This document shows positions 1-35,807 of a stretch of DNA of 37,673 bases, one piece after another. Origin of the DNA: a virus; the IMG/VR virus record IMGVR_UViG_3300048927_000734, positions 1 through 37,673 of that record; one strand, given 5' to 3'. The position numbers and the translations under genes were made by a program. Under the pieces are notes generated by a model that saw nothing but the letters and a program-made list of their open reading frames with translations, did no database searches and had not been told where the DNA came from. Every line of letters starts with the position of its first letter. Within the stretch, counting starts at the first letter, position 1.

Positions 1-1053
1 TCAGCCGGATTCCAGCTTCCGGATTGCGGACTCGGCGAGGCGCTGATCGCGGTTCAGATAATGTGCGTCGAGTATGTCGTTCACGTCGCGCAGCGAATGG
101 CCCGTGATCGTCGCGATCTCCGGCGGCGTTGCTCCGGCCAGTGCCAGGCGCGTTACGGCCGTGCCGCGCAGATCATGGAAGGTCACCCCTTCCACACCCG
201 CAGCGATGCATGCTTTGCGCCACGAAGCGCGGAAGCCGCCTTCTGTCCACGGCGTCCCGCGCTCGGTCAGCAAGATCGTCTCGCGCGCGGAAGGGCGGCT
301 CTCCGCAAGCGCGTCGAGCCGCGCCTTTAGCGGCTTGCCCACCGGGATCACGATTCGTTTGCCTGCCTGACCTTCCTTTTTCCGGATCGTCTTGTGCTGA
401 ACCAAGCGCAGGTTCGCGCTGTCATAGGCGCCCCAGGTCAGCGCCAGCAGGTCGCCCTGTCGCTGGCCCGTCCAGAGCGCCAGCATCAGCGCCAGGTGCA
501 GGTGCTCCGGCGCGCGTGCATAAAACGCTGCTTCGTTCTCGGCCGACCACACGCGCTCCGATCGTGCCGCGCGATACACGCGGCCGCCCGCCCGGCACGG
601 GTTGACCGGCGCCAGGCCGCGATCCACCGACCAGGACAGCACGCGCGCCAGCACCGAATAGGCGTAATCGGCCTGCCTACGCGATCGAATGGCAAGGCGA
701 TCCCGCCAAGCCATGAATTCGCCCCGGGTGCGCCGATCCGCGAGCGCGGCGATGGGGAAGTCGCCGAATTCGCCATCGATGATGCGCAGCTGCTTATTGT
801 AGTCGACGCGCGTTCGGTCCGCGAGATCGGTGAAGGCGCTCGAATCCTGAAACGCATCCAATAGCGTGCGCAGCGTGTCGGTGGCGCGCTTGCGATCTTC
901 GGCATGGGCCCGTTCGTAGCTGGCCAGAAACTCAGGCGTGCCCGGCTTGCCCTCAAGGCGGGGTCCGCCCTTCCAGGCATAGAAATACTCCACGATTTCG
1001 CCATTGGCGGCGCGCACGCGCGTGCGATTCACCCCCTTCAGCTTAACCCGCAT
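1..1053 (-). CDS. int: Tyrosine-type site-specific integrase (prophage integrase)
   Basis: Catalyses integration and excision of the prophage at its att site. The 350-aa protein has an N-terminal arm/core-binding region (about 1-165) and a C-terminal catalytic domain. The full tyrosine recombinase set is visible: R198 (TGQRQGD), K221, H293 and R296 (HDLRG), H319 (GHSL) and Y332 (HYLNRD). I chose the ATG at 1053 because GGAAGG lies just upstream; an in-frame ATG at 1074 is less well placed. The start overlaps the end of the 64-aa gene upstream, so int is the last gene of the minus-strand early operon. The stop codon is at the window edge, so the att site expected beside int is not visible. Family assignment is secure. 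Confidence 0.96.
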   Translation of the reverse strand: MRVKLKGVNRTRVRAANGEIVEYFYAWKGGPRLEGKPGTPEFLASYERAHAEDRKRATDTLRTLLDAFQDSSAFTDLADRTRVDYNKQLRIIDGEFGDFPIAALADRRTRGEFMAWRDRLAIRSRRQADYAYSVLARVLSWSVDRGLAPVNPCRAGGRVYRAARSERVWSAENEAAFYARAPEHLHLALMLALWTGQRQGDLLALTWGAYDSANLRLVQHKTIRKKEGQAGKRIVIPVGKPLKARLDALAESRPSARETILLTERGTPWTEGGFRASWRKACIAAGVEGVTFHDLRGTAVTRLALAGATPPEIATITGHSLRDVNDILDAHYLNRDQRLAESAIRKLESG

Positions 1054-1237
1054 TGCGGCTCGCCTTCCATGCATCGAAGGGGCTGGCGGGGGCGGCTTCT
1101 GCCTCGGCGGAGGCGTGGAACAGGATGATGCGGCCGTCGGGGTCGATTTCGGTGCGCGCGATCTCCAGCCCGCCCTTACGGCAGGCGCGAATCGCGCGGG
1201 CTAGATCGGTCGGGCGGAAAGAGGGGCGTGCAGCCAT
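1043..1237 (-). CDS. Small conserved-type protein upstream of integrase
   Basis: A 64-aa protein preceded by an AAAGGACG ribosome-binding site. It overlaps the int start by 11 bases, so the two are probably translationally coupled. It begins with a basic helix (FRPTDLARAIRACRKGG) and continues with a strand-like EIDPDGRIILF segment. The gene's position directly before int suggests an excisionase or recombination accessory role, but I see no recognisable excisionase motif and do not assign the function. Confidence 0.7.
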   Translation of the reverse strand: MAARPSFRPTDLARAIRACRKGGLEIARTEIDPDGRIILFHASAEAEAAPASPFDAWKASRNAG

Positions 1238-2416: not shown

Positions 2417-2904
2417 AGGGTGCCCCGCATGGTTGGTCCCGGCGCCGCACGGCGACGAAAAATCGAGCTGAGACGGCGCGAGAGGGAGCCGACGGCCTGC
2501 GCCGCCTCGTGCGTTTCCTGCAGCGCGCGGAGCATGGCGGCGCGGCTGGCGTCCGGCCGGCTCGCGGCGAGGCTGAAGGAGACGGCCTCGCCGGCTTCCT
2601 TCGCGACGTCCGCGATCTCGATCACCAGCGCCTGCGGGCAGGCTGCCAGCTCGGCCGCCGCCGGATCGACCATGCGGGCATAGCATTCGAGCAACGGCAT
2701 CGAAGCGCCACCGGCCGCGACATAGGCGCGGTCGAGCGCGGCAGCCTGCGCCAGGGTAGGCGTGGTCGCCGTATCGGGATCAGTCCATTTGTAGATCGTC
2801 CGATCGCCCACGCCTGCGGCATGGGCCGCGCGGCGCACGCTCAGGCGATCGGCGATTTGCAAAACGGCAGCGGACCAGGTGCCGGGGATGCGTAGTTTTG
2901 TCAC
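2413..2904 (-). CDS. CII-like phage DNA-binding regulator
   Basis: 163 aa, overlapping both neighbours (stop over the ogr start, start over the Cro-like stop). Residues 12-75 form a helical DNA-binding-type domain: LSVRRAAHAAGVGDRTIYKW resembles helix-turn-helix, followed by PTLAQAAALDRAYVAAGG, the pattern of phage CII/CP76-type regulators that pair an HTH with a section about testing or counting copies. The C-terminal half is Ala-rich, helical and likely oligomeric. A role in early control or commitment to replication is plausible from position. Family call moderate; exact role inferred. Confidence 0.6.
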   Translation of the reverse strand: MTKLRIPGTWSAAVLQIADRLSVRRAAHAAGVGDRTIYKWTDPDTATTPTLAQAAALDRAYVAAGGASMPLLECYARMVDPAAAELAACPQALVIEIADVAKEAGEAVSFSLAASRPDASRAAMLRALQETHEAAQAVGSLSRRLSSIFRRRAAPGPTMRGTL

Positions 2905-3281
2905 CCTCGGGCCTCCGAGCGAGGGAAGGGGATGGGGCTCCGGTCGGCCGGAGCCGCCGGAGCCTCCGCCGCAGTGCGACCCGCGGGGTTATCGGAGAAG
3001 TGGTAGGCGTTCGATGCAGCGCCGGGATTGCACGCGACGCGGCCCGGCTGGAGTTGTACATCAAGGTCTACGGGATAGAGATCGGGACGAAGGAGGGAAC
3101 GGGACACTCCAGTGGCTTTTTCCACGCGCAGGACGTGTTCCGCGGGAAGGTGCTTCCCGTTCGTAAGCCACTTCCAAACGGCAGCTTGAGAGATGCCACA
3201 AACCCTCGCCAGCGCGGATTGTGAGCCCGCAACCGCGACGGCCTTTTCGAGCGATTGGCTTGGAGTCAGGGAGAGATCCAT
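2901..3281 (-). CDS. Cro/YdaS-like HTH regulator, first gene of the early operon
   Basis: 126 aa. Residues 8-66 hold a helix-turn-helix: SLEKAVAVAGSQSALARVCG, then ISQAAVWKWLTNGKHLPAEH, then VLRVEKATGVSRSLLRPDLY. The order and the terminal LRPDLYP signature are characteristic of YdaS/Cro-type phage regulators. The remainder is a low-complexity tail. It is divergent from the CI-like gene, with 83 bases between start codons containing the operator repeats. Expected role: lytic-side repressor controlling the divergent promoters. The start fits, because the DNA upstream is the palindromic control region. Confidence 0.82.
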   Translation of the reverse strand: MDLSLTPSQSLEKAVAVAGSQSALARVCGISQAAVWKWLTNGKHLPAEHVLRVEKATGVSRSLLRPDLYPVDLDVQLQPGRVACNPGAASNAYHFSDNPAGRTAAEAPAAPADRSPIPFPRSEARG

Positions 3282-3284
3282 GCT

Positions 3285-3355
3285 GACGACCTACAGCTAT
3301 AGCATTAGGTCGTCAATAGCTAAAGCGTTATACGCTGCTACAGCTAAAGGTGTAG
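3285..3355. promoter_or_regulatory. CI/Cro operator region: three AGCT-centred sites and a 9-bp palindrome
   Basis: Between the divergent Cro-like and CI-like genes are three related near-palindromes: CTACAGCTATAG (3291-3302), CAATAGCTAAAG (3314-3325) and CTACAGCTAAAG (3338-3349). They are spaced 23 and 24 bp apart, about two helical turns, as in tripartite lambdoid operators. A perfect 9-bp inverted repeat, GACGACCTA / TAGGTCGTC (3285-3293 and 3306-3314), flanks the first site. GCTAC / GTAGC (3336-3340 and 3351-3355) flanks the third. These are the expected binding sites of the two HTH proteins. Confidence 0.7.
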
Positions 3356-3364
3356 CGTCCTTCC

Positions 3365-3772
3365 ATGTTTTCCTCAGAACGCTTCAGATCCCTCTTGGCC
3401 GAACGGGGCATAAGCCAGGCTGAGCTGGGTCGCCGTATTGGCATCGCGCAAGCTACCGTGAACAAGCTCGCGACCGGTGGCGCCTACGGCACGAAGTACA
3501 TTCATTCGATTGCGCGAACACTCCGGACGTCGCCCGCGTATCTGATGGGGGAAACGGACGATCCTGCCCCGGATGCGCCGGTTGTTGAGCCGGAGCGGCC
3601 GGTCCAGTTCGTCACCATGCAGGTCGCGCTGCCTAGTGAGGAAGCGCTGGCAACCATGTTCCGGGCCATGCTGCGGATCGTGCCCGAGAACGCAACCGAG
3701 GACGAGCGTGCTCAAATTCTCGCTCGGCGTTTGCCAGCTGCGCTTTCGCAGCTTCGAGATCTCGCGCCTTAA
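3365..3772 (+). CDS. CI-like XRE-family repressor (short, no peptidase domain)
   Basis: 135 aa. Residues 5-62 are a canonical XRE helix-turn-helix: RFRSLLAERGISQAELGRRIG, then IAQATVNKLATGG, then YIHSIARTLRTSPAYLMGE. The C-terminus has no S24/LexA-type peptidase domain and instead has a helical region (LPSEEALATMFRAMLRIV...), probably for dimerisation. The repressor is therefore unlikely to be inactivated by RecA-stimulated autocleavage, consistent with P2-type phages that are not SOS-induced. It is divergent from the Cro-like gene and is the first plus-strand gene before the lysogenic cargo. Confidence 0.85.
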   Translation: MFSSERFRSLLAERGISQAELGRRIGIAQATVNKLATGGAYGTKYIHSIARTLRTSPAYLMGETDDPAPDAPVVEPERPVQFVTMQVALPSEEALATMFRAMLRIVPENATEDERAQILARRLPAALSQLRDLAP

Positions 3773-4089: not shown

Positions 4090-4437
4090 ATGGTAGTGCT
4101 CATGCTCCTCTCCGCCGCGTCTCTGTGCATCGCCAACGTGCATGACGGCGACACCATTCGAAGCTGCGATGGCGAGCGCATCCGAATCGCGAATATCGAC
4201 GCGCCGGAAATGCGAGGCAGCCCAAAGTGTCGAGACCGCCGGCGCCGCGGCTGGTGCGATTATCCCCTGGCCACGCGCAGCCGAGACGCACTGGCGACCT
4301 TCCTAGCGGAAGGGCGCGTGACAATCCGACGCCAGGGCGAGGATCGCTATGGCCGCACGCTCGCGACGCTAGCAGTCAACGGGCACGATGCGGGCCAGTA
4401 CCTGGTTGACCGGCGACTTGCCCGCCCGTGGCGCTGA
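4090..4437 (+). CDS. Exported thermonuclease-like protein (SNase fold)
   Basis: 115 aa with a short hydrophobic N-terminus (VVLMLLSAASLC), probably a signal peptide. The staphylococcal-nuclease-type domain follows directly: HDGDTIR (D21), RIRIANIDAPE with catalytic-type R32, D37 and E40, and DRYGRTLA with R89. These correspond to SNase R35, D40, E43 and R87, so the active site appears intact. An extra CRDRRRRGWC loop may form a disulphide, fitting an exported protein. Such nucleases degrade DNA and RNA with Ca2+. It lies downstream of the repressor on the same strand, so it is likely expressed from the prophage. Possible roles are nucleotide scavenging or degradation of incoming DNA in the periplasm; neither is proven. 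Confidence 0.82.
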   Translation: MVVLMLLSAASLCIANVHDGDTIRSCDGERIRIANIDAPEMRGSPKCRDRRRRGWCDYPLATRSRDALATFLAEGRVTIRRQGEDRYGRTLATLAVNGHDAGQYLVDRRLARPWR

Positions 4438-4734: not shown

Positions 4735-5604
4735 ATGATGGCGACGGTTGCATCAGTATCGCGCTGCCTTAAATGCGAAACGGAAGTCCCCTATGCGGCC
4801 AGAGAATGTGTCGGGTGTGGGCAGGATGTTGGATTTCCTAACGTTCGCGCAGCAAACCAGCGTGCAGAGATCGAGGCGTTGCGCGATCGCGTGCGATACG
4901 CGCAGGTCGCAGCCGATGAACGGGGATGTGCCGCCGAACTTGAAGAGTTCGGGACGGCTGCCTCCAACTCGGACGCCGTGTTAGTCAGGCATCTAAGCGT
5001 CATCGATTATTTCTTTTCAAACGAGCAAGCTGCCATGGTGTCCTACTACAAAATGGTACGGGCTGGCATGAGGTTGCCCGAGAATAATGACTGGGATGCG
5101 AACCGTGGCCGCATCGACGGTACGATTAACCCCCATGAAGTACACGAACATATTCAGTATGCGGCGCTTTCTTTGAATGGCCGGGGCGTGTCATGGTACG
5201 GCGATTATGCAGTGACGTTGCGCGAAAAGATGATTGAGGCGCGCGCAACGGTGTTTGAGGAGAATCCGTTCACCTTCTGTAACAAGCATCCGGTCCCGCC
5301 CACTGGCTCGGTTCCGCCGGGCTTTCGCGCCAACTGGGCGCGTCGCGGCGAACTCGCCATGGCGAAGCTTCATCCACGAATCCAGCCGGGGACAAAGGCG
5401 TCAGATTTTCCGGCGATTCTCGTCGAGCAAGGCGAAAAATCAGCTGATAGTGATTTTATCGAAGTGCATATATATGGCGCGATTCACGCGCGTGCGGTCG
5501 AGCGCGTGATCGGACCCGAACCGGTCCGCCGCGCCGACCGCGCCATTTGGAAGCGCGTCAAGCGTGCATTGATCACGATTGGCGCAGAGATCGAAGAGGC
5601 TTGA
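4735..5604 (+). CDS. Zinc-ribbon protein of a two-gene cargo cassette, possible ART-like C-terminal domain
   Basis: 289 aa. The N-terminus is a zinc ribbon (C11-x2-C14-x10-C25-x2-C28). A coiled-coil-like stretch follows (about 40-72), then an alpha/beta domain (about 85-262) with distinctive motifs: INPHEVHEHIQYAALSL, GVSWYGDYAVTLRE (YG at 155-156), ARATVFEENPF and DFIEVHIYG (241-248). The pattern of a YG strand, an R-T-F strand and a final acidic strand before HxYG recalls DUF3626-like or ADP-ribosyltransferase-type folds. I could not confirm this, so treat it as a hypothesis. Its TGA is followed immediately by the ATG of the TPR gene, so the two are co-translated. Base composition is less GC-rich than the late genes, suggesting recent acquisition. 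The start could equally be the ATG at 4738. Confidence 0.75.
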   Translation: MMATVASVSRCLKCETEVPYAARECVGCGQDVGFPNVRAANQRAEIEALRDRVRYAQVAADERGCAAELEEFGTAASNSDAVLVRHLSVIDYFFSNEQAAMVSYYKMVRAGMRLPENNDWDANRGRIDGTINPHEVHEHIQYAALSLNGRGVSWYGDYAVTLREKMIEARATVFEENPFTFCNKHPVPPTGSVPPGFRANWARRGELAMAKLHPRIQPGTKASDFPAILVEQGEKSADSDFIEVHIYGAIHARAVERVIGPEPVRRADRAIWKRVKRALITIGAEIEEA

Positions 5605-8055
5605 ATGCAGGTTGTCGCATCTGGCCAAGCTGGATTGTTCGCGATCCAGAATGCGCACGGCTTCACCATCAAGCGGCTAGACAACGGCGCGACCCATCAG
5701 AGTAGCGCGGGCGAGTTGGCTTATTATTTTGCAGGCTGCAACGATGTCACCGCGTTCACCGCAAAAAACGAACGCGAAGCGGAAGCCGCCGCCGAGGCGG
5801 CGTGGGCTGCTGACCGTGCAGTTCGTTTGTTCGTGATGTTGCTCGACCCGCAGGAGGAGCCGGGCGATCTCGCGGAGGTCGGCGAGGCACTCGACGAACT
5901 GCTCGATCTCGAAGGGACTACGGCGCGGGTTGAAAGGCAGATTTACTCCGCCCCGCTACCGCAGCCGATCGACTTTCACGCCATAGCGAAGGCACTTGAG
6001 ACTGCGCCCAAGTCTAAGGATCTGCTTGAGCGCTTCCTAGGCCTGCAATCCACAATCGCCCGAGTCAGAAACGAGTTCGACCTTATCGATGAAAGCGTCT
6101 TCGGCGACGCGCGCCGAAAGCGTGAGTTTTTCGAAGAGGCAATCGATCGGGGTAGCGTGCGTGCCCTAGTCATCGCCGCGAACACGGCTCATGTAGATAA
6201 AGCGTTGTTCCAACTCTATTCTGATCTCAAAGGGCTAGATAATCACCGGGTCATTATTCAGGCCTGGACGCAACCTTTCGCTCGCGTGCACCACAAATTC
6301 GAGCTGCGAGCTGAGCCGGAAGAACTTCATCGCGCCGCCACACCAACGAGCCCCGTCGGTGGCCGACAGGCTTACGAACGCGCACTTCAACAGCAGGTCG
6401 CGATCGTTGAGCGCATCCGCAGCGCCGATTTCGACACTGCACGGCGATTTACCCGCGACCTAATCATCGACCAACGGAACACGGGCTCATCGGAGCATCT
6501 AGCGAAATCGCTGACAAATCTGAGCCAGAAGGCCAAAGATCTAAACGTACTAGAGCTCGCTTTAGAATGGGCGACAGAGGCGGTCGAGGTTAAAGGCGAC
6601 GACGGGATAGCGCATGCTCAGTTGGCCGATTTGCTCATGCAAGTCGGCCGCTACGTCGAGGCGTCACATAGCCTAGACCTTGCCCAAACCTATGGGGAGG
6701 CTGGATTCGCAGAATCGGGGCGTGCACGGATGCTGCGCTACCAAGGGCATTACGCTGAGGCCCTTGCGGCATACCGGGAAGCGGTCAACCATTACGGGGA
6801 GGACTACGAGCAAGCTCACTACAACTTCGCAGGTATCGCCGAGTGCTTACGCGACATGGAACGCCTTGATGAGGCGCTTGCTGCTTATGATGTCGCGATC
6901 TCCCGTTGGCCGTACGAGGCGGTATTGCATGCCGGTCGCGCCGCAACGCTTGTCGAGATGGGGCGCTTCGAGGAAGCTTTGGCGGGATACGACACCGCGA
7001 TAAATCTTGACGATAACAATATTGTTTATCTCAATGGCATCGCTTCGCTCCGTCGCCGAGCCGGAGATTTTGGGACTGCAGAGTCCAGCTTCCGTGCGAT
7101 TGTGGCAGACTACCCATTCGACATATATGCGCGAGGCGGTCTCATCAGCACGCTTCGCGACGTCGGACGCTTCGGTGAAGCGGTCGACGAAGCGCGAACT
7201 CTGGTCGATTATTTTCCGGCGTCGCCGGACGCTCTTTGGATCCTAGCCGACGCGCTGATCGACGCGAAGCAGTTCGACGAGGCAAAAGATGTTCTTGACT
7301 CTGCAGTTAAGGACAATCGTCACAGCGAAGGTCTGCGTGCCGGCTTAGCCCGGATTGAGAAAGCTCGGGGGCGCTATGCCGCCGCGCTCGCCCTCTATGA
7401 CGAAGCTGCCCGGGATTTTCCGTCAAACCAATGGTTCCAGCTCGGACGTGCGGGCATGTTGCGCCGTCTTGGCAATGTCGACGAAGCATTACGCATCTAC
7501 GAGCGCGCCTTTCAACGGCACCCTCATCGCCTGAATCTGAAAAATGCGATGGCTAGTATTTTCATTCATCAGAAGCATTTCGATGAAGCGCTGCCGATGC
7601 TGACGATCGACAACCCAAGAACCACTCACGAATGGCGCAACTTCGTCCTCCGTGGCATGCTAGATAGCGAAACCGGCTTCACTGATGAGGCGCGAGAACG
7701 TTTTGAATGGGGTATCAAACGCTGCCCATTTCGACGTGAGTCGCGAATGCTTCGCGCAGCGCTAAGCAACATACAATTGCGATCGGGCGCCGCAGATCAG
7801 GCGGTCGAAACGACGAAGGATTGCGCTGACGATGTGACCGAATTGCTACGGTTCCACGCCAATGCAATGCAAGGCCACGAGGGGGTTGCTCGAGATCTTT
7901 ATCTACTTCTGAAAGAAAGCTTCTTACCCGAACCTTATCATGAGCTCCGGGATGAGATCGCACGCTACTATAATGTTGTACCGTTTCCTGCTCGTCATGA
8001 TAGGAGTTGGATTCTAGAGCGGGAATCGGACGTACTTCTGCTCGAGGCCGCCTAA
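5605..8055 (+). CDS. Large TPR-repeat protein, partner of the zinc-ribbon protein
   Basis: 816 aa. Residues 1-270 form a unique N-terminal domain (starting QAGLFAIQNAHGFTIKRLDNG, then acidic helices) with no motif I recognise. From about 300 to 740 there is an array of tetratricopeptide repeats, with repeated units such as GRYVEASHSLDLAQ, GHYAEALAAYREAV, ERLDEALAAYDVAI, GRFEEALAGYDTAI, GRYAAALALYDEAA and GNVDEALRIYERAF. The C-terminus (740-816) is not repetitive. No signal peptide or membrane segment, so cytoplasmic. The ATG abuts the stop of the zinc-ribbon gene, implying a fixed-stoichiometry pair. TPR arrays serve as sensor or scaffold in many phage-defence systems. With its position next to the repressor in the lysogeny-expressed strand, a prophage-encoded defence or exclusion role is plausible but unproven. 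Confidence 0.85.
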   Translation: MQVVASGQAGLFAIQNAHGFTIKRLDNGATHQSSAGELAYYFAGCNDVTAFTAKNEREAEAAAEAAWAADRAVRLFVMLLDPQEEPGDLAEVGEALDELLDLEGTTARVERQIYSAPLPQPIDFHAIAKALETAPKSKDLLERFLGLQSTIARVRNEFDLIDESVFGDARRKREFFEEAIDRGSVRALVIAANTAHVDKALFQLYSDLKGLDNHRVIIQAWTQPFARVHHKFELRAEPEELHRAATPTSPVGGRQAYERALQQQVAIVERIRSADFDTARRFTRDLIIDQRNTGSSEHLAKSLTNLSQKAKDLNVLELALEWATEAVEVKGDDGIAHAQLADLLMQVGRYVEASHSLDLAQTYGEAGFAESGRARMLRYQGHYAEALAAYREAVNHYGEDYEQAHYNFAGIAECLRDMERLDEALAAYDVAISRWPYEAVLHAGRAATLVEMGRFEEALAGYDTAINLDDNNIVYLNGIASLRRRAGDFGTAESSFRAIVADYPFDIYARGGLISTLRDVGRFGEAVDEARTLVDYFPASPDALWILADALIDAKQFDEAKDVLDSAVKDNRHSEGLRAGLARIEKARGRYAAALALYDEAARDFPSNQWFQLGRAGMLRRLGNVDEALRIYERAFQRHPHRLNLKNAMASIFIHQKHFDEALPMLTIDNPRTTHEWRNFVLRGMLDSETGFTDEARERFEWGIKRCPFRRESRMLRAALSNIQLRSGAADQAVETTKDCADDVTELLRFHANAMQGHEGVARDLYLLLKESFLPEPYHELRDEIARYYNVVPFPARHDRSWILERESDVLLLEAA

Positions 8056-33923: not shown

Positions 33924-35807
33924 TCAACCCGTATTGCCAGTTATGAAGTTGGTGCCCGAGTAAAATGGGGTCATTGTAGGGCTGGTCGTGATGCTAATGC
34001 CGCCTCGAATCAGTTTTGAGGCAAAGCCACCTGCGATATTGGCGCTATTTATACCGCCGACATCATAGTTGTTTCGGGTATCTGTATTAACGGTAACATT
34101 GATACCGTTGGCGTAAGTCGACGATCCACCAACCGTAGGCTTTATAGTGCAGCCATTTATGGGGCCATAGATCACCACTACATTGTATGTGCTGTTGGAC
34201 CCGCTTGAGTTAAAGGCCGTAAATTCCAGGTGGCATGAGCTGCAGCCCGTCATCGTGCTGACATTATTACCCGAGCCGGACTGGACAATCATGCCTTGCA
34301 GGCGTGCGGCAGTAGTATTCTCTAGTGATATGCAAATAGAACTGGAGTTGTTGAGAATTTGCCCGCCTGTAATTGATACGGGTCCATGACAGCTGTTGAG
34401 CCAGTATCCCGCTCCGGCGCTCCCCGCTGCCATGGCAACATATGGGTCCGCGACGTTTATGGCTGCACTCGCCGCGGCATTCTGAATTACTAGTCCGCCC
34501 GCGTTGCAGGCATCAAGAATGGGATGCTTGATATAAATGTCGCCATTCGTACCGCCGCCCTCGATGAACATTCCTACGTTACAGATTCCGGCTTCAAAAT
34601 CCTCGATGAACAGATCTTGCAATCCGCCGTAAAGGCGCATGCCGAAGGAGTTTGCCCGTTGCAAGCTGCCTTCGTTATTCGTCGCATTTGCTTTAGTAAT
34701 GAAAAGCGATGCGTTGCCTCCAACTGTTCCAATGTTGTAATTGCCATTTACGTCGTAGCCATCCCAAAAATCAGTTCCCGATCCAGATCCAGGGACGTCA
34801 CGAACGGCATAAGTTCGATCTACAACGCATCCCACTAAGCCTGCGAGTTCGTAACCCTTCATTGAGTTTCGCGACTTTATGTTTTTGATCGTGCCTCCGA
34901 TTATAAAAGTGGCACGCAGGCCAACGCAGTTGCTTGAAATGTTCGGCGCAACAGATCTGTCGAGCATCACGTCGGAAACTACGATGCCCAGCGGGAAGTT
35001 GAGAGGCGCCGGTGTAGGGAGGGACGGCGAACCTACCTGAAGGATGTTGGCAGTGGCGCTTGTGCAAATAATTCGGCTTACCCCCGGTATGTTATGAGAA
35101 TCATTGAACGCGTTGAAGCCGTTGCCCACCAGCCTATGATTCGCTGTGGAGTGAATGATGGTATCGCTCGTGTAATACCGTGCGGCTCTGAGCTGCGTCG
35201 TTGGTAGAAGAGCGAGCGCGGCATTTAATGCTGCGACGTTAATGGCGGCAGAGGTCGCACTTTCGGGTATTGCGCCGAACCACTCCGCGAATCCCGTGAC
35301 CTCGTCCCAAACGCGCGCCCAACATCCGGAAGCGCCAGAGGTATCGGTCGCTGGCGGGATATATAGCCCTTGGAGGGGGTCGCTCGATATCAAGGCCGAC
35401 TTGTCGCCGCTGATCCATCGGAAATAGCCGGATCGGCTACCGAGATTTAAGAAGACGGCAGATGTGCCCACAGGAACGGCCTGGAGGGCGGCGATCGACG
35501 ATGGGAAAAGATCGCTCCCTTGGATTTGTGTAGAGATCGGGTCAAAGTCGTAGCCGGTGATCGGGGTGCCAGAGGAATTTCGTACTCGGAAGCGATATTG
35601 CACATATGGTGTAGTGAAAATGGCAGGAAACTTGCCATCACTCGACGCAACAATTGGGTTGCTATGGGGTGTCGTTAAATTACTGTCTTTGTAAACCGTT
35701 GCTGGCGTTGTTGTTCCGCTCAAAAATACGTCCATCAACGCTCCTGGTGATGGTTCGGCGTTCGGCCCAAATGCTGGCGAAAGCGGCAGCGTAATTGGTG
35801 ATGGCAT
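33924..35807 (-). CDS. Tailspike with head-binding-type N-terminus and beta-helix
   Basis: 627 aa from the ATG at 35807, with AGGAAGAG upstream. The N-terminus (FLSGTTTPATVYKDSNLTTPHSNPIVASSDGKFPAIF) matches the head-binding adaptor of P22-type tailspikes. The rest is Gly/Asn/Ser-rich with repeated beta-strand patterns (INVAALNAALALLP..., VGNGFNAFND..., ADPYVAMAAGSAGAGYWLNS..., GQILNNSSSICISLE), typical of a right-handed beta-helix that binds or degrades polysaccharide. Its G+C is visibly lower than the phage genes and it is convergent with Q near the expected cos region, so it was probably acquired separately. Different receptor specificity from H is likely. Confidence 0.85.
   Translation of the reverse strand: MPSPITLPLSPAFGPNAEPSPGALMDVFLSGTTTPATVYKDSNLTTPHSNPIVASSDGKFPAIFTTPYVQYRFRVRNSSGTPITGYDFDPISTQIQGSDLFPSSIAALQAVPVGTSAVFLNLGSRSGYFRWISGDKSALISSDPLQGLYIPPATDTSGASGCWARVWDEVTGFAEWFGAIPESATSAAINVAALNAALALLPTTQLRAARYYTSDTIIHSTANHRLVGNGFNAFNDSHNIPGVSRIICTSATANILQVGSPSLPTPAPLNFPLGIVVSDVMLDRSVAPNISSNCVGLRATFIIGGTIKNIKSRNSMKGYELAGLVGCVVDRTYAVRDVPGSGSGTDFWDGYDVNGNYNIGTVGGNASLFITKANATNNEGSLQRANSFGMRLYGGLQDLFIEDFEAGICNVGMFIEGGGTNGDIYIKHPILDACNAGGLVIQNAAASAAINVADPYVAMAAGSAGAGYWLNSCHGPVSITGGQILNNSSSICISLENTTAARLQGMIVQSGSGNNVSTMTGCSSCHLEFTAFNSSGSNSTYNVVVIYGPINGCTIKPTVGGSSTYANGINVTVNTDTRNNYDVGGINSANIAGGFASKLIRGGISITTSPTMTPFYSGTNFITGNTG

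Follow-up and report, generated by a model that had tools for sequence, protein, structure and literature searches.

In the 37.7-kb virus record IMGVR_UViG_3300048927_000734 of a P2-like phage (37,673 nucleotides, analysed at full length and referred to here as the window), two adjoining genes, termed A and B, are fairly likely to form an anti-phage module for superinfection immunity, in which A would be the effector, an ADP-ribosyltransferase (ART), and B would control it or act as the sensor. Support for an immune module comes from the conservation of the two-gene unit, the co-divergence of its members, the ART fold and invariant glutamate of A, the swappable C-terminus of B and the position of the pair in a hotspot for defence cargo. 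We infer the effector and sensor roles from fold, linkage and position, and likewise the enzymatic activity of A, its binding and control by B, a phage as the trigger and the identity of the substrate. The pair consists of the following parts.

4735-5604 (+): gene A, 289 residues, with a zinc ribbon, a helical linker and an ART-fold domain; putative effector enzyme.
4765-4818 (+): zinc ribbon of A, C11-x2-C14...C25-x2-C28, from Cys conservation and a weak match to Pfam DZR.
5197-5265 (+): conserved core motif of A, residues 155-177 (YG...RATVFEEN), aligned with YG...RATFTGADS from a DUF3626 protein.
5455-5478 (+): FIEVHIYG motif of A, residues 241-248, from alignment and conservation.
5461-5463 (+): E243 of A, the candidate catalytic glutamate, present in 23/23 homologues.
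5602-5607 (+): TGAATG junction in the sequence, where the stop of A is followed by the start of B with zero spacer.
5605-8055 (+): gene B, 816 residues, a constant N-domain plus an array of tetratricopeptide repeats (TPR); putative partner, sensor or targeting protein.
5605-6360 (+): N-terminal domain of B, residues 1-252, placed directly after A in every locus by a hidden Markov model.
6475-7824 (+): TPR array of B, approximately residues 291-740, from Pfam; the region exchanged in some homologues.

A and B are a real, long-lived two-gene unit. The initial annotation had described proteins of 289 and 816 residues encoded with zero spacing, and both open reading frames (ORFs) are exact and meet at TGAATG. 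Homologues were collected by a protein-guided scan of a species-genome collection, a plasmid scan and profile searches of ~1,500 further genomes; these yielded 16 A loci from the species-genome collection, one from the plasmid scan and a further set from the profile searches. The 29 loci include the window and one locus cut by a contig end, and number 28 when the near-identical L017 and L065 are counted once. Wherever DNA downstream of A is available, the next gene encodes the B N-domain, and the check on conserved adjacency that the initial annotation had called for places it directly after A in 28/28 non-redundant loci. The two genes overlap in most homologues, typically as ATGA, and the distance matrices of A and of the B N-domain are correlated (r = 0.79; 0/5000 permutations above 0.43). 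That A and B might be one frameshifted gene was rejected, as the homologues retain two coupled genes, mostly in different frames. The association goes far beyond chance because A homologues only 25-43% identical keep the same two-gene order in several phyla, with carriers that include Hyphomicrobiales, Sphingomonadales, Methylococcales, Acidobacteriota, Nitrospirota, Planctomycetota and Zixibacteria. Clear A matches occur in ~0.7-2% of genomes per sampled group, seed genomes included, and from such sequence comparisons the patchy spread is probably that of a horizontally moving gene.

Family models say little about A. Searches against Pfam, PADLOC, NCBIfam and PHROGs recovered a weak zinc ribbon only (DZR, E 0.026), a profile of A run against PDB sequences gave only chance zinc-ribbon matches, and a weak FzlA match in the family searches of the two proteins was judged to be noise. 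The zinc ribbon proposed for the small protein is borne out by conservation, since each of its four Cys is kept in at least 21 of the 23 homologues (21-22/23). Residues N36, R124, G156, W201, L207 and E243 are invariant in all 23, while Y155, N177 and K211 are present in 22/23. The WYGDYAV and DFIEVHIYG motifs remarked on initially are real and are among the best-conserved parts of the A family.

The initial annotation treated the resemblance of A to ARTs and DUF3626 as one of pattern, and it is now supported by fold matches of an AlphaFold model, by a DUF3626 phage protein and by the register of the motifs. The AlphaFold2 model of A, which was built with 16 sequences, has a mean predicted local distance difference test score (pLDDT) of 87 and a predicted template-modelling score of 0.85, and was compared with other structures by Foldseek (best E 1.3e-5) and VIA-align 2. 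In the latter comparison the closest solved folds are SopF (Z 14.4 over 223 residues, root-mean-square deviation 3.8) and OspC3/CopC (Z 10-11; OspC3 11.1), followed by DarT (Z 8-10, best 9.9), the tRNA 2'-phosphotransferase Tpt1 (Z 9.1) and CteC (Z 5.5). Among the viral models, A matched a DUF3626 protein from a Nodularia phage (E 3e-7). The structure search places A in the fold group of DUF3626 (PF12294), a family to which residues 178-338 of SopF have been assigned (PMC6682159). An hhalign comparison of A with the DUF3626 protein from a sister phage of that Nodularia phage gave a modest score (Prob 26, E 7e-4), in which YGDYAVTLREKMIEARATVFEEN of A falls on YGSISVKLKPDIKDRATFTGADS and DFIEVHIYG falls on RYMEAQLHG, with E243 opposite the Glu of the latter motif. 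The YG...RAT...(D/E)(S/N) and (F/Y)(I/M)E...G motifs of DUF3626 are present in A in the same order and register. A differs from DUF3626 in that it adds a zinc ribbon, always has B as its partner and does not match the Pfam model, which 0/17 A homologues matched even at E 10; a DUF3626 scan of 149 Acidobacteriota genomes found no match anywhere and is uninformative. On the strength of the model, A is supported as a protein with the fold of the ART superfamily.

Catalysis by A is likely, but its activity is not assured because no conserved His or Arg is evident at the first ART motif in the A alignment; around R85 many homologues have R and others T, V or C. It is very improbable that A has the ART fold but no catalytic activity and that the pair acts as a non-enzymatic binding complex. 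The missing first-motif residue and the low sequence similarity of A to active ARTs would fit such a complex, but the invariance of E243 together with the other invariant or nearly invariant residues is what a retained active site would show, and the motifs of A agree with those of DUF3626.

A distant relative of the A core occurs in Sphingomonadales (L060:8990-11648, E 5e-9) in another gene context, without the zinc ribbon and without a detectable B. It runs with a 156-residue protein that has hydrophobic stretches and a 437-residue protein; none of these matches Pfam, and the run is possibly another ART-based module.

From about residue 290 onwards B matches TPR models (TPR_19, E 1.5e-27), and residues 1-250 have no match in Pfam, PHROGs, PADLOC or NCBIfam, in keeping with the unique N-terminal domain attributed to the large protein. 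Searched against PADLOC-DB 2.0.0, B gave matches to the TPR region only, the best at residues 545-637. The model of residues 1-252 is mostly above pLDDT 90, with residues 229-250 disordered, and predicts an alpha solenoid that is preceded by a small beta sheet. Fold searches with this domain found no solved fold above noise, which does not in itself prove a new fold. The C-terminal module that follows is usually TPR in the homologues but can be a ribosomal protein S2, a sigma-70-like region or a stretch without a recognisable domain (L014, L066); in L011, L064 and L067 the TPR part, or more of it, is found in the next ORF. In three B homologues the TPR repeats are 76-90% identical with a 68-residue period, which suggests, from the sequences, a recent expansion or a change of the recognition part. 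On plasmid pRL9b4 of Rhizobium leguminosarum (L002:12836-14368) the B N-domain is fused in frame to a complete S2 protein (PF00318, E 1.4e-96). This S2 differs at N-terminal positions that three other S2 proteins from Alphaproteobacteria have in common, and the annotation of the record is limited to rpsB, with a start inside the fused ORF. In an Acidobacteriota locus (L063:7896-9554) one ORF encodes the B N-domain and, after it, a sigma-70-like region, whose Sigma70_r4 match (E 3e-4) falls short of the Pfam cut-off. These fusions, one case each, are leads and not proof.

A further plasmid-borne S2 gene, 85% identical and without the B domain, lies on pAtS4b of Allorhizobium ampelinum (L074:5974-6903), where it adjoins a large TPR protein, an integrase and VapBC and RES genes. 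Extra copies of S2 may recur in mobile, defence-like regions.

The variants of B with an S2 or sigma-like region also bear on a different function, namely lysogenic conversion, counter-defence or the regulation of a host protein by modification, in which B would direct A to one particular component of the host, for instance the ribosome or RNA polymerase. Structural relatives of A modify host proteins with the help of a partner, SopF requiring ARF1 and OspC3/CopC requiring calmodulin for activity (PMC9239266), the phage T4 enzyme ModB modifies ribosomal proteins (PMC10931766), and several A-B homologues lie in ordinary chromosomal surroundings. A role of this kind is nevertheless improbable: the S2 and sigma-like fusions are single cases, and immunity accounts better for the scattered occurrence across several phyla and for the defence genes in the phage slot described below.

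The position of the pair within the phage is defined by the neighbouring genes.

1-1074 (-): integrase.
2901-3281 (-): divergent regulator gene, which pairs with the regulator at 3365-3772.
3365-3772 (+): helix-turn-helix repressor-like gene, 135 residues (HTH_26/HTH_3), upstream of A on the same strand.
4090-4437 (+): SNase-like gene, 115 residues, between the repressor and A.

The backbone of the phage comprises the integrase, a gpD-like tail gene, a tape measure, a tail sheath, a P2-type head protein and a terminase. A-B lies, together with the SNase-like gene, between the divergent regulators and the tail operon, on the strand (+) opposite to the integrase (-) and the tail operon (-). Its placement downstream of a repressor on the same strand was seen correctly at the outset, with the SNase-like gene intervening, as was its difference in composition (54-59% GC in A-B against 63-71% in the tail genes). 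Scans for promoters and terminators gave scores no better than those of shuffled sequences.

The slot occupied by A-B was compared across 80 related viral contigs with gpD as the anchor. A repressor lies downstream of gpD in 52/80 contigs, at an interval of 0.74 to 6.6 kb (median 2.0; 4.6 kb in the window), and none of the 80 carries A or B. In the nearest relative, phage L079, gpD and the integrase are 94% and the SNase 97% identical to those of the window, and the slot holds an 863-residue SIR2_2 + nSTAND + TPR protein with a weak Avs5 match (L079:14066-16657, E 2e-6). The slot of L133 carries LmuB of Lamassu (E 9e-161), that of L086 a type IIG enzyme and that of L107 a D12-class methylase, while L085 has a cytosine methylase with Vsr and a GHKL ATPase, as do L087 and L121 by eye. 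The slot is a hotspot for defence cargo, which upholds the earlier view that this zone of P2-family phages carries exclusion and defence genes: the related phages hold Avs5-like, Lamassu and restriction-modification genes there. Similar hotspots in E. coli P2-like phages are described in PMC9122126.

The combination of a cytosine methylase and a GHKL ATPase recurs in the slot (L085, L087, L121, L144), with a Vsr-like endonuclease in 3/4. Some cargo proteins, for example those at L088:11138-13552 and L107:13192-14712, have no match in the models tested and may be further defence genes.

Away from phages the surroundings are mixed. The homologue of a Sphingomonas (L005) has an integrase and CBASS genes (cyclase, E1-E2, 2TM effector) in its neighbourhood, those of L009, L015 and L056 lie near integrases or a resolvase, and that of L058 is near a DUF559 nuclease-like gene. 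The suggestion that homologous pairs cluster in prophages or defence islands stands for the phage slot and the one CBASS neighbour and only partly for the other chromosomal copies, several of which lie among housekeeping genes. Searches of public phages and IMG/VR by protein and by alignment returned no homologue of A, and B matched phages and plasmids through its TPR region only. In L016, L018 and L058 A is apparently broken and B still recognisable, and A is shortened in L017/L065; a broken A beside an intact B fits a costly effector.

Several of these observations weigh against an immune function for A-B. No other phage or viral contig with the pair was found, several non-phage loci lie among housekeeping genes, and integrases or defence genes stand beside some of these loci only. 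The broken A genes are possibly assembly errors in metagenome-assembled genomes. At the level of A itself, the first ART motif lacks an evident conserved His or Arg, the overall DUF3626 profile score is modest and comes from one protein, and an hhalign comparison with one DarT gave E 0.63 without an aligned core.

Alternatively, A-B could serve the upkeep of a prophage or plasmid as a toxin-antitoxin or addiction module, with A as a growth-inhibiting ART and B as its antitoxin, without dedicated phage sensing. Two tightly coupled genes, the smaller encoding an ART fold, would be expected of such a module, as would the occurrence of A-B on a prophage and on a plasmid, the several loci with a broken A and a recognisable B, and a GNAT/DUF1778 pair near the plasmid copy. 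B, however, greatly exceeds the usual size of an antitoxin and its C-terminal modules can be exchanged, and the slot in related phages holds classical defence genes, all of which makes upkeep alone unlikely. The toxin-antitoxin and defence readings overlap, since known defence systems can be toxin-antitoxin systems.

The claim that no named system combines A and B holds in that neither gave a specific match to the models of PADLOC-DB 2.0.0, where A had no match at all; this release dates from 2023, and systems named later fall outside its models. No ART + TPR defence system was found in the open-access literature. DarTG, a toxin-antitoxin system in phage defence, resembles A-B in having a small ART-fold protein beside a larger partner, but its partner DarG is a macrodomain protein whereas B is a unique domain plus TPR. 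A-B was rejected as a DarTG system, as A has no profile match to the one DarT compared and B has no macrodomain and matches TPR models only. CmdTAC is similar to the proposed module in that its ART effector is held by partner proteins and freed on infection (PMC11618068). An assignment to CmdTAC was likewise rejected, given its three genes with an antitoxin and a chaperone as opposed to the two constant genes and unrelated partner architecture of A-B. SopF and OspC3/CopC act on eukaryotic hosts, unlike A, which looks cytosolic and is in an operon with its own partner. The Avs5-like protein of L079 shares with A-B the slot, an NAD+-using effector domain (SIR2) and a sensor-like TPR part; it is a single protein with a STAND NTPase and an unrelated effector, whereas A-B has no NTPase domain. 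A-B is probably a new version of an ART-based defence system and would work like one.

Two other features of the window lie outside the pair. Repeated AGCTAWAGC-like words between the divergent regulators (3281-3365) are possibly repressor operators. A low-GC stretch at 33924-35807 (-) contains a 627-residue ORF that has no match in PHROGs, Pfam, NCBIfam or PADLOC and by eye resembles a phage tail-spike or fibre protein.

As an immune module, A-B would be carried by the prophage on the strand of the lysogeny genes, and A would belong to the DUF3626/DarT/SopF-like structural group of ADP-ribosyltransferases and either modify a macromolecule of the host or of a phage or use up NAD+. The constant N-domain of B would bind A and either hold it inactive or supply a co-factor surface that A needs, while the variable C-terminal module, usually TPR, would sense infection or pick the target. 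Infection by a competing phage would change the state of B, A would then act and phage replication would stop. By analogy, B might restrain A as partner proteins restrain CmdT in CmdTAC (PMC11618068) or activate A as calmodulin activates CopC (PMC9239266). In a more elaborate and quite unlikely form of the immune module, a constant ART effector and a constant B N-domain adaptor would be combined with interchangeable recognition modules, including S2 or sigma as bait for phage proteins. The TPR arrays would expand by near-identical repeats, and in rare cases a copy of a host component, S2 or a sigma factor, would lure phage proteins that attack translation or transcription, much as integrated decoys do in plant immune receptors.

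Bacterial immunity is increasingly found to involve ART effectors, as in DarTG and CmdTAC. If the immune function is true, A-B adds an uncharacterised module to this group, with a partner domain that matched no solved fold above noise and an enzyme whose closest solved structural relatives are effectors aimed at eukaryotes. The natural swaps among TPR, S2 and sigma-like modules provide direct and testable hints on how the enzyme is aimed or triggered.

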